From Rhodobacter maris (GTDB taxonomy: Bacteria; Pseudomonadota; Alphaproteobacteria; Rhodobacterales; Rhodobacteraceae), in NCBI RefSeq assembly GCF_900217815.1, contig NZ_OBMT01000012.1:1-64000 (forward strand): a stretch of DNA of 64,000 nucleotides, given 5' to 3'. The translations under genes were made by a program, and so were the position numbers. The notes beneath the pieces are model-generated. The model was not told the DNA's origin and did not search any database. It saw nothing but the letters and a program-made list of their open reading frames with translations. Shown here one piece after another: positions 29,836 to 33,623 of the stretch; position 1 is the first letter of the stretch, and the number at the start of each line of letters is the position of its first letter.

Positions 29836-31200
29836 TCAGGCCAGCCCCGCCAAATGGGTCAGAATTCCAAGGCTCGCCGACCCGGCCAGCACCCCTGCCA
29901 TGCCCCAGCCACGCTTGAACACCGCCCAAAGTGCCAAGGCGGCAATCAGCGTCGCGGGCAGATCGAGCGTGGTGATCTGCGGCAGATCAAGAGCGGCCGG
30001 CCCGAGATCGACCCGCCCCACCTCGCGCCAGAGCAGATGCAGCGCGAACCAGAGCGCAAGGTTCGTGATCACCCCCACCACCGCCGCCGTCACCGCCGAA
30101 AGCGCCGCGCCCAGGGCCCGGTTTGTGCGCAGCCGCTCGATGAAGGGCGCGCCAAGGAAAATCCAGGCAAAACAGGGGGCAAAGGTCACCCAGCTGGCAA
30201 GGAGGCCGCCCAATGTGCCCGCAATGAGCGGCGCCTCCCAGCCCGCGATGCGAAAGGCCGCCATGAAGCCCACGAATTGCAGCACCATGATCAACGGCCC
30301 CGGCGTCGTTTCCGCCATGCCCAGCCCGTTCAGCATGTCGCCCGGGGCAAGCCAGCCGTAATCGGTTACCGCCGCCTGCGCCACCCAAGCCAGCACCGCA
30401 TAGGCGCCGCCAAAGCTCAGCACGGCCAGTTTCGAAAAGAAGAGCGCAATCGCGGTGAAGACACTCTCCGGCGCAAGCAGACAAAGCGCCGCCACCGGAA
30501 CCAGCCAAAGCATCAGCACCACGGTGGCTGCCTTCAGCGCGGCGCGACGCTCGGCTCCGGTCGGGTCGCCGTGCTCCTCGCCCAGAACCGTTTCGGCATC
30601 GGTGATCGCAGGGGCGCCCGCCGCGCCATGCCCGCCGGGAGCGAAGGCCTTGGGCGCGATCAGGCCACCAAGCACGCCAATCAGCGCCGACGCCGCCACG
30701 ATGAGCGGAAACGGCAGCGCAAAGACGAAAATCCCCACAAAAGCAGCCAGCGCCAGCGCCCGTTGCGCCGCCGTCTTTAACGCGCGTTTCGCCACCCGCG
30801 CCACCGCCTGCGCAACGATCGCCAGCACCCCGGCTTTGAGCCCGAAGAACAGGCCCGCAACCAGCCCGACCTCGCCCCAAAGCGCATAGATCCAGCTGAG
30901 GGCCATCAGTGCAGCCACACCGGGCGCGATGAACAGCAGGCCCGCCAGCAGTGCGCCGCGCACGCCATGCATCAGCCAGCCGATATAGGTGGCCAGCTGC
31001 ATCGCCTCGGGACCGGGCAACAGCATGCAAAAGTTCAGCGCATGCAGGAAACGCGCGTCTCCAAGCCAGCGTTTCTCCTCGACAAGAATGCGGTGCATGA
31101 CCGCGATCTGCCCCGCCGGCCCGCCAAAGGACAGGCCCGCGATCCGCGCCCAGACGCGCGCCGCTTCGCCCAGACCGGGCCGTTCGATGGTCGCGGGCAT
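29836..31200 (-). CDS. chrA: Chromate transporter ChrA
   Basis: A 454-residue long-chain CHR protein with two homologous halves. Each half opens with the family motif: LSFGGPAGQIAVMHRILVE (about residue 20) and LSFGGAYAVLAWVAQ (about 270), followed by PGPEAMQLATYIG and TPGPLIMVLQFVGF. About ten membrane helices are predicted. It exports chromate, driven by the membrane potential. The ATG at 31200 has GGAGG in front. It follows the cut copper operon on the same strand after 76 bases, where a TGCGGG/CCCGCA hairpin lies (31235-31255), so it may be partly co-transcribed as a metal-resistance unit. Confidence 0.92.
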   Translation of the reverse strand: MPATIERPGLGEAARVWARIAGLSFGGPAGQIAVMHRILVEEKRWLGDARFLHALNFCMLLPGPEAMQLATYIGWLMHGVRGALLAGLLFIAPGVAALMALSWIYALWGEVGLVAGLFFGLKAGVLAIVAQAVARVAKRALKTAAQRALALAAFVGIFVFALPFPLIVAASALIGVLGGLIAPKAFAPGGHGAAGAPAITDAETVLGEEHGDPTGAERRAALKAATVVLMLWLVPVAALCLLAPESVFTAIALFFSKLAVLSFGGAYAVLAWVAQAAVTDYGWLAPGDMLNGLGMAETTPGPLIMVLQFVGFMAAFRIAGWEAPLIAGTLGGLLASWVTFAPCFAWIFLGAPFIERLRTNRALGAALSAVTAAVVGVITNLALWFALHLLWREVGRVDLGPAALDLPQITTLDLPATLIAALALWAVFKRGWGMAGVLAGSASLGILTHLAGLA

Positions 31201-31276
31201 CAGGGCCCTCCTGCGGCAAGGATGTGCTGCCCCATGCGGGCCTGTCAAACCCGCACGGAACAGGCTTGGGCGCAGA

Positions 31277-31747
31277 TCAGGCCGCGTCGTAATGGGCAAA
31301 GACGCGGGTCTGGCCGTCGGGCGTGATCAGATGCACGTCATAGGCCTCGCGCTGATCTTCAGGCCCCATGCCGGGGGCGCCGAGCGGCATTCCGGGCACG
31401 GCCAGCCCGAGCGCCGCGGGGCGTTCTGCCAGAAGCCTTCGGATGTCGGCCGGGGGAACGTGGCCCTCGATCACATATCCCTCGACGCGGGCGGTATGAC
31501 ACGAACGCATCGGCGCGGGGATGCCGCTTTGCACCTTGAGCGCCTGCAGCGCGTCGTAATCGATCACCCGCACCGTCACGGCAAAGCCGTCGGCCCGCAA
31601 CACATCGATCCAGGCTTCGCAGCAACTGCAGTCGGGATCCTTGACGACAGTGATTGCCACCGGTTCTGCGGCGGCAAGCGGGGACGCGGCCAGAAGCCCC
31701 GCCACAAGGGCGAGGATCTGACGGCGGGACAGGTCGTGCTTGGTCAT
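31277..31747 (-). CDS. cutG: DUF411 periplasmic copper chaperone, CutG-like
   Basis: A 156-residue exported protein with a twin-arginine-like signal (LSRRQILALVAG) and a thioredoxin-like DUF411 domain. The metal motif CSCCEAW lies near residue 40, and PMRSCHTARV and HVPPADI follow as in the family. In R. capsulatus the corresponding third gene of the cut operon, cutG, supplies copper to the CutO oxidase in the periplasm. The gene lies 12 bases after cutO. The function is transferred from family and context. Confidence 0.87.
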   Translation of the reverse strand: MTKHDLSRRQILALVAGLLAASPLAAAEPVAITVVKDPDCSCCEAWIDVLRADGFAVTVRVIDYDALQALKVQSGIPAPMRSCHTARVEGYVIEGHVPPADIRRLLAERPAALGLAVPGMPLGAPGMGPEDQREAYDVHLITPDGQTRVFAHYDAA

Positions 31748-31759
31748 GTCGGTTCCCCC

Positions 31760-33244
31760 TCAGGCGCTGACGTGGAATTCGGTCATCATGCCGGTGGCGA
31801 GATGCCCCATGTGGTGACAATGCAGCATCCATGGCGCGGCCTCGCCCGCATCCAGCGCGACCGTCACGCTGCCCATCGGCGGCACCGAGACGGTATCGCG
31901 CACCGCGCCCTCGAAACGGGCGCCGTTCACCTCGACCACCTGAAACACATGGCCGTGCAGATGCATCGGATGCGCCATCATCGACATGTTGTGAAACATC
32001 ATCTCGACTCGTTCGCCCGATTTCGCCTTCACGGGCAAGCGGTTATCCCATGTCCGCCCGTCGATCGTCCATTGATAGGGCATCATCATCCCCATCAGCA
32101 TCACCATCGGCTGCGCTGTGGCAGTCCGTGCGGGAAGCGGCGTGACGGCGCGGAGCGCCAATTCCTGCGTCATGTCCCCCGAGACCGCCGAATGGGGCAC
32201 GTCAGAAAGATCGGCCAGCTTCGGCACTGCCGCCCCTTTCGGCGCGAGGATCAGCCCGGTGCGCTCGCGCGTGCCTTCGCGCAGCGCAAGGATCGGCAGG
32301 GCGGCGCCGTCGCCCGGCATCTCGATTTCAATGTCGAGCCGCTGCCCGGGCGAAATCGCAAACCGCGTGCCCGGCAGCGGCACCACCGGGTTGCCATCGA
32401 CCGCGACGAGCCGCGCCTTTGCCGCGCCGGTGTCGATCCAGAAGGCGGTCATCGCCGCCCCGTCGATCACCCGCAGCCGCACCCGGCCGCCCTTTTCGAC
32501 CCGCACCACCTCGGGATCGGCGAGCGTCCGGTCGTTCGCCAGATAGGCGTCGAAGTCGTAATCGTTCAGATCCATCGACATACCGCCTTCCATCGCGGCG
32601 TGCATCTCTGCCATGCCGGGCATGGACATCATGGCGCCCATTCCCCCCATGCCCTGCATGCCCGGCATCGGCGCGGCGGAATGATCCATGGCGTTGTGGT
32701 CCATCGCCGTGCCGCCGGTGATCGTCTCGAGCACCTCTTGCGGGGTCGCAAAGGCGAAGTCATGGAGCAGCATCACCACTTCCTGCCGGTCTTCGGCGAC
32801 CTCTTCGGGGCGGCGCACGATCAGCGGCGCGGCCAGAAGACCGATTTCCTGATCGGGGATGTGGCTGTGCATCCAGAAAGTGCCCGGGCGGGCTTCGAAA
32901 TCGAAGCTGCGGCTTTGGCCGGGTTTCAGCATCGGGTTGGTGTTCGGCACGCCGTCTTGCGCATTGGGCGGGATCTGCCCGTGCCAATGCACGATGGTGT
33001 CGATCGCAAGCGCATTCGTCAGATCGGTGCGAAAGCGCTGGCCCGGATCAAGGCGCAGGCCGGACCGGCCCTGCGCATCCAGAAGGCCCATCACGGTCGC
33101 TGCACGACCATTCACCTCGATCACCCGCGTCGTGGCGGTGAGCGAAAAGGCGTCGGCAGCAGCCCGGGCGCGGGCAGGCACAAGGGGGAGCGCGGCAAAG
33201 GCCGCAGAGGCGGCCAGAAAGCCGCGGCGGGAAAGATTGGTCAT
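31760..33244 (-). CDS. cutO: Multicopper oxidase CutO (Cu(I) detoxification)
   Basis: The 494-residue oxidase has a twin-arginine signal (LSRRGFLAASAA) and all four copper-binding segments: HWHG, WMHSHI, HPMHLHGH and HCHHMGHLATGM. A Met- and His-rich insert at about residues 180-225 (MDHNAMDH, MPGMQGMGGMGAMM, MEGGMSM) resembles the CueO substrate loop that feeds Cu(I) to the type 1 site. It oxidises periplasmic Cu(I) to Cu(II). The GGAG ribosome-binding site is buried in a hairpin with the end of cutF, so translation should depend on cutF reading. Confidence 0.93.
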   Translation of the reverse strand: MTNLSRRGFLAASAAFAALPLVPARARAAADAFSLTATTRVIEVNGRAATVMGLLDAQGRSGLRLDPGQRFRTDLTNALAIDTIVHWHGQIPPNAQDGVPNTNPMLKPGQSRSFDFEARPGTFWMHSHIPDQEIGLLAAPLIVRRPEEVAEDRQEVVMLLHDFAFATPQEVLETITGGTAMDHNAMDHSAAPMPGMQGMGGMGAMMSMPGMAEMHAAMEGGMSMDLNDYDFDAYLANDRTLADPEVVRVEKGGRVRLRVIDGAAMTAFWIDTGAAKARLVAVDGNPVVPLPGTRFAISPGQRLDIEIEMPGDGAALPILALREGTRERTGLILAPKGAAVPKLADLSDVPHSAVSGDMTQELALRAVTPLPARTATAQPMVMLMGMMMPYQWTIDGRTWDNRLPVKAKSGERVEMMFHNMSMMAHPMHLHGHVFQVVEVNGARFEGAVRDTVSVPPMGSVTVALDAGEAAPWMLHCHHMGHLATGMMTEFHVSA

Positions 33245-33246
33245 GG

Positions 33247-33284
33247 TGATCTCCGGTTCAAGAAGGGGAACGTGGCGAAGATCA
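33247..33284 (-). promoter_or_regulatory. cutF-cutO translational hairpin hiding the cutO ribosome-binding site
   Basis: On the minus strand TGATCTTCG (33284-33276) can pair with CGGAGATCA (33255-33247) over nine positions with one G-T wobble and a 20-base loop. The 5' arm begins exactly at the cutF stop codon TGA; the 3' arm contains the GGAG of cutO. A ribosome paused at the end of cutF would open the stem. Confidence 0.75.
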
Positions 33285-33623
33285 GACGCGGGGCGGCGGG
33301 CCCTCGGGTTCGGGGGAAACGAGCGCCAGCAGCACCGGAACCGCAGGCGGGAAGAGGCGCGAGATACGCTCGGCCCGTTCTGCGGGCTGCACCGGCTCGG
33401 GCGTCAGCGACGCGGACAGACAATGATGCAGGCAGCCGTCCGGCGCGGCAGGGTCGGTATGGTGTGAGGCAGACAGAGACGGCATCCCGCCCATGTCCTT
33501 CATGCAATCAGTGCCGTGATGCGGACAGGCCGGAGGCGCGGCGACGACCGGTGCAGCGGTTCCAAGCGCCGCCAGAAAGACGGCGATCAGGGTCAGGCGA
33601 AGCAGGGCGCAAAGAATCCGCAT
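33282..33623 (-). CDS. cutF: CutF-like copper-sensing leader protein
   Basis: A 113-residue protein with a signal-peptide-like N-terminus (residues 1-29, ending VVAA), Cys at 33 and 40, a CLHHC motif at 64-68, several His and Met residues, and a Pro-rich tail ending in EPEGPPPRV. R. capsulatus CutF has the same plan, with a Cys-x3-Cys motif and a proline-rich end, and its translation is needed for copper-dependent CutO production. The three consecutive prolines just before the stop are a plausible pausing sequence. The start at 33623 gives a proper signal sequence; an upstream ATG at 33710 adds residues unlike one. No enzymatic role is apparent. Confidence 0.8.
   Translation of the reverse strand: MRILCALLRLTLIAVFLAALGTAAPVVAAPPACPHHGTDCMKDMGGMPSLSASHHTDPAAPDGCLHHCLSASLTPEPVQPAERAERISRLFPPAVPVLLALVSPEPEGPPPRV

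Follow-up and report, generated by a model that had tools for sequence, protein, structure and literature searches.

The window, the whole 64,000-nucleotide stretch of Rhodobacter maris DNA that was analysed, harbours the cutFOG copper switch of Rhodobacter capsulatus in a sister species, with a stem over the cutO Shine-Dalgarno sequence (SD) that would be opened by a ribosome pausing near the end of cutF; we give this reading a probability of roughly 0.85. The element is thus the already-known R. capsulatus switch, and extends the published system to a second species. The genes lie in the order cutF-cutO-cutG, with multicopper oxidase and DUF411 products (Table 1), the CutF protein is orthologous to the published one and has both a CxxxC motif and a C-terminal proline-rich end, and a stem-loop hides the cutO SD with CTTC as its anti-SD. 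The N-terminus of CutF is hydrophobic, and the translation contains both the CLHHC motif and the EGPPPRV terminus described in the initial annotation of this DNA. The window CutF matched no Pfam family at E<=1, DUF2946 (PF11162) included, and a profile search within its own genome gave no match; CutF was labelled a DUF2946 protein by its authors (PMC9973294). Past cutG, an open reading frame on the minus strand (29836-31299) resembles, by eye, a chromate-transporter-type membrane protein.

Table 1. Features of the cutFOG locus in window coordinates.
Feature	Position	Strand	Description
cutF	33282..33623	-	113-aa exported leader; Sec-type signal peptide, CLHHC, C-terminal EGPPPRV
CLHHC motif	33420..33434	-	Copper-binding motif (C64-C68); last Pro-Pro 46 residues downstream
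Pro-Pro-Pro codons	33291..33299	-	CCG CCG CCC; presumed pause site
5' arm	33276..33284	-	UGAUCUUCG; anti-SD arm, includes cutF stop codon
Inner helix	33256..33271	-	4-bp GUUC/GAAC with 8-nt loop (33271-33268 x 33259-33256)
3' arm	33247..33255	-	CGGAGAUCA; includes cutO SD GGAG (33254-33251)
cutO	31760..33244	-	Tat-exported multicopper oxidase, 494 aa; ATG 33244-33242
cutG	31277..31747	-	DUF411 protein, third gene of cutFOG

The mRNA across the junction, from the minus strand, reads CCG CCG CCC CGC GUC UGA UCUUCG CCAC GUUC CCCUUCUU GAAC CGGAGAUCA CC AUG. Its two arms form nine pairs, including one G-U, with the first base of the stem falling on the cutF UGA and the cutO GGAG covered, so that the stem originally described from the letters alone was recovered exactly, at 33247-33284. 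The inner helix, absent from that description, stacks onto the nine-pair stem past a 4-nt bulge. Folding of the 64-nt junction gives a minimum free energy of -17.0 kcal/mol, compared with -11.8 +/- 2.3 for shuffles (z -2.31; 4/200 shuffles equal or better), and the SD is paired with the stop and Pro-Pro region at 1.00, a value attained by 2% of SD-preserving shuffles. Rfam holds no family at the cutF-cutO junction.

In R. capsulatus, a stem-loop, a proline-rich end, a Cys motif and copper-dependent export have been described as parts of one switch (Ozturk et al. 2023, PMC9973294; Rademacher 2012, as cited in PMC9973294). There the cutO SD is hidden by a stem, and the SLm mutation, in which the anti-SD CTTC is changed to AAAA, removes the dependence of cutO on CutF (PMC9973294). 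With the stem intact, none of the Cys motif, the proline-rich end or the Sec signal is dispensable (PMC9973294; for the proline-rich end also PMC8456105), the reported proline mutant being a deletion of the C-terminus rather than point changes, and cutF must be translated in cis (PMC9973294). Copper- and CutF-dependent translation of cutO has been published for R. capsulatus only (PMC9973294). Since these genetics already support the core of the switch, a hidden SD opened by translation and export of a CutF with Cys and Pro motifs, the model offered in the initial annotation as its own inference, exact stem and pausing link included, is the one already in print.

L010, a genome from within the genus, encodes exactly the published CutF (118 aa, C69xxxC73, PEPEGPPPRL), and this match in sequence identifies it as the probable published strain. 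Its stem arms are identical to those of the window, its single CTTC between the cutF stop and the SD lies within the 5' arm, and the CUUC of the window 5' arm corresponds to the bases replaced by AAAA in SLm. Gene order, CutF motifs, SD gating and the copper signal are likewise shared, whereas one loop base and a base before the cutO ATG region differ in the window, whose CutF has 113 residues and ends in RV rather than RL. Because the two CutO proteins are about 90% identical, the window derives from a close relative of L010 and not from the same genome.

Mechanistically, CutF would act as a short-lived exported leader that is threaded through SecYEG during its own synthesis. Copper at the Cys motif may delay the ribosome at the C-terminal Pro-Pro-Pro, where it would reach into the 5' arm and free the cutO SD, allowing the copper-detoxifying oxidase CutO to be made; with no delay, the stem would re-form and cutO would stay closed. 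The modelled cost of opening the window SD falls from 9.8 to 5.2, 3.0 and 2.5 kcal/mol with the leading edge of the ribosome 9, 12 and 15 nt past Pro-Pro, the SLm change giving 2.4 kcal/mol. Opening energy was used in place of SD accessibility because weak local pairings remain after removal of the arm, and the accessibility probability stayed low in many cases. With the front of the ribosome taken to be 15 nt from the P-site codon, our own estimate would put it about 9 nt past Pro-Pro if CutF were held in the register of RAPP peptides; a pause one or two codons beyond this strict register would act more fully, since the opening cost then nears the SLm value. We infer both the pause on CutF and its register. 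A melting of the stem by proline pausing, as initially suggested, accords with the genetic need for the proline-rich end, but no arrested CutF chain was detected with LepB fusions in R. capsulatus, whose authors left stalling open; in the same work, export of a LepB-CutF fusion was reduced by copper (PMC9973294).

What computation shows here is the window stem, its persistence among relatives as SD sequestration, and where it sits with respect to Pro-Pro. A CutF protein search over 395 genomes of the family returned 7 matches, almost none convincing, and junctions were therefore collected through CutO homologues; 86 distinct junctions were kept, each with cutO preceded by a gene whose product carries a Cys pair together with a C-terminal Pro-Pro. 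A recognisable SD is present in 78/86, and is mostly paired in all 78, its partner lying -12 to +20 nt from the end of the Pro-Pro codons in 68/78 (87%) and such PP-proximal pairing being absent in about 13%. The same pairing occurs in 25% of shuffles in which the upstream part was shuffled and the SD kept, and in 7-19%, depending on the assumed offset, of ordinary gene pairs, of which only 27 were taken, from stretches of the window's own genome. Five cutO homologues follow a long open reading frame whose C-terminus resembles, by eye, a copper ATPase and which bears no CutF signature; pairing is absent in 4/5, and present in the fifth with a 22-nt gap. Other leaderless cutO cases are mixed, or have no usable upstream reading frame or SD. 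Relatives conserve SD pairing to PP-proximal codons rather than a hairpin of fixed form. In a Paracoccus-like group no SD can be recognised. In L130, L131, L076, L079, L095 and L137, a helix AAATCCATC/GATGGATT follows Pro-Pro, with no GGAG-like SD before the assigned cutO start. In genome G410 (L013, L019, L022), an in-frame TGA interrupts cutO-like sequences at more than one place.

The position of the anti-SD arm tracks Pro-Pro better than it tracks the stop codon. In the R. capsulatus-like class, with two residues after Pro-Pro, the SD partner is centred at +11.5 nt from Pro-Pro, in an arm that overlaps the stop. The RPPK class has five residues after Pro-Pro; there the centre is at +10.5 nt and the arm falls within the final codons of cutF, CGT CTC CTC (Arg-Leu-Leu). 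A third group has the Pro codons themselves as the arm (centre -3.5). Across 32 clusters the arm centre has a spread of 6.6 nt when measured from Pro-Pro and 9.2 nt when measured from the stop, and in the downstream register alone 2.8 and 6.2 nt, values that are descriptive rather than an independent test, the registers having been noticed in the data from which the spread was measured. The start of the window stem at TGA is therefore a detail of one lineage, and the switch is probably not anchored by termination. A hairpin placed by the proline codons of the leader, sometimes within coding sequence, in dozens of relatives looks new; the portions of the R. capsulatus papers available to us report neither arm covariation nor an arm within coding sequence. 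This adds a testable rule, namely that what should matter is how far the anti-SD arm lies from Pro-Pro, and not how far it lies from the stop. The first Pro-Pro codon is CCT in 54/86 leaders, against about 6% of cutO Pro codons, also where it is not the predicted arm. In L083, L085, L016, L103 and other RPPK-class members, hairpins of about CGCCCGGGCC..GGCG and CGGGAC..GTCCCG lie within a branched long-range helix, and the latter hairpin directly precedes AGGAG.

These positions bear on an alternative, which we consider unlikely, in which the stem is opened by any ribosome that terminates on cutF whilst copper acts elsewhere, for example on mRNA stability or on CutO maturation. In the window the stem starts at UGA, so that a terminating ribosome would cover it too, and in R. 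capsulatus CutO activity rises with copper even without the stem and CutF (PMC9973294). Against this, the R. capsulatus Cys and Pro mutants should terminate normally, yet they express cutO only when the stem is broken (PMC9973294), and the arm centre is more scattered about the stop than about Pro-Pro. Termination at TGA, one of the two opening events first envisaged for this stem, is disfavoured, as the arms of other lineages sit 10-20 nt before the stop with their distance from Pro-Pro kept. A stem opened by a ribosome held at Pro-Pro-Pro remains the preferred reading.

Covariation between the arms, named in the initial annotation as a check on the stem, was found between lineages and not within the one to which the window belongs. 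Within the R. capsulatus-like class, pairing at the nine positions is preserved in 83% of cells, as against at most 52% when the arms are slid, and two-sided changes are no more frequent than in shuffles, because the stop codon and the SD fix most letters of the arms. Pooling this class with the RPPK class, whose arm pair is CGUCUCCUC/GAGGAGACG, gives a covariation score above all shuffles, a signal that mostly reflects a single contrast between two lineages, each counted in a fixed register of its own. When arms were exchanged among 34 representatives, cognate arms paired at -12.3 kcal/mol and permuted arms at -9.3 (z -8.0, 0/20000 permutations); this alignment-free comparison used an SD-centred window and one representative per cluster at <40% identity in the spacer between Cys and Pro-Pro, by which relatedness is reduced but still present. 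It was clearer than a first exchange of arms over wide windows, where the effect was modest (median rank 0.16).

These controls also weigh on the idea that the pairing seen in relatives arises incidentally from C-rich Pro codons and G-rich SDs, CCTCC in Pro codons being complementary to GGAGG and the Pro codons themselves forming the arm in one register. We regard this as improbable, since none of the controls (dinucleotide shuffles, ordinary gene pairs, swapped arms) comes near the observed pairing, and in the RPPK class Leu after Pro-Pro, within the arm, is encoded by CTC in 47/50 codons, compared with 23% across the cutO genes at these loci, a bias whose p-value is too small at face value because the sequences are related. 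Less probable still is a hairpin serving mainly as a cutOG mRNA stability element and not as an SD gate, for although the R. capsulatus intergenic region has been linked to cutOG mRNA stability (PMC9973294, PMC8456105), breaking the anti-SD arm alone raises CutO about tenfold (PMC9973294) and makes CutF dispensable, and it is the SD pairing rather than a fixed hairpin that relatives conserve.

The leader peptides carry a spacing of their own. With a filter that allowed 21-74 residues between Cys and Pro-Pro, the first motif Cys lies 44-47 residues before Pro-Pro in 86/86 CutF-like leaders, and 46 residues before it in 70/86, whilst the median identity of this spacer is 0.15. The 45-residue distance in R. 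capsulatus CutF has already been reported (PMC9973294), as has a conserved Cys-Pro-Pro spacing for DUF2946.

Among related systems, SecM-secA and the RAPP/RGPP arrest peptides (e.g. the secDF2 leader, PMC10987492) share with the CutF model a C-terminal arrest motif, co-translational export and a stalled ribosome that opens a stem hiding the next SD. They differ in sensing Sec activity and no metal, and a RAPP/RAGP-like motif is lacking near the C-terminus of the window CutF, which ends in EGPPPRV. The CruR upstream reading frame of Bordetella pertussis (DUF2946) is likewise a short exported leader with a Cys pair at a fixed distance from a C-terminal Pro-Pro, linked to copper and lying in a copper-gene operon; it differs in having CXXC and RAPP, in copper relieving the arrest, and in the proposed Rho-dependent termination (PMC9426467). 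Arrest of CruR has been shown in vitro and by toeprint (PMC12992588). The published CruR model does without SD sequestration, whereas its DUF2946 relatives show SD pairing here: among 42 junctions of DUF2946 (PF11162) leaders from the phylum, with uncurated starts chosen by SD strength only, the SD pairs near Pro-Pro in 76%, against 17% in shuffles, and 20/42 exceed 95% of their own shuffles, in a set with many close relatives, e.g. several rows that are Bradyrhizobium-like by sequence pattern only. This suggests that SD gating may also operate in CruR-type leaders, in a manner compatible with the published Rho-dependent termination.

On balance we hold it an even question whether CutF and CruR leaders share one RNA switch, in which the anti-SD arm is set by Pro-Pro (within it, or some 6-14 nt after it, even in coding sequence) and this RNA constraint shapes the final codons of the leader, the direction of the copper response being set by the peptide, with the pause prolonged in CutF and relieved in CruR, and not by the RNA. 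If true, two systems now explained by different models would have a common mechanism, and the rule would recognise metal-sensing leaders from sequence and predict the downstream genes that they gate. Among the genes downstream of ten DUF2946 leaders are TonB-dependent receptors and a PepSY protein.
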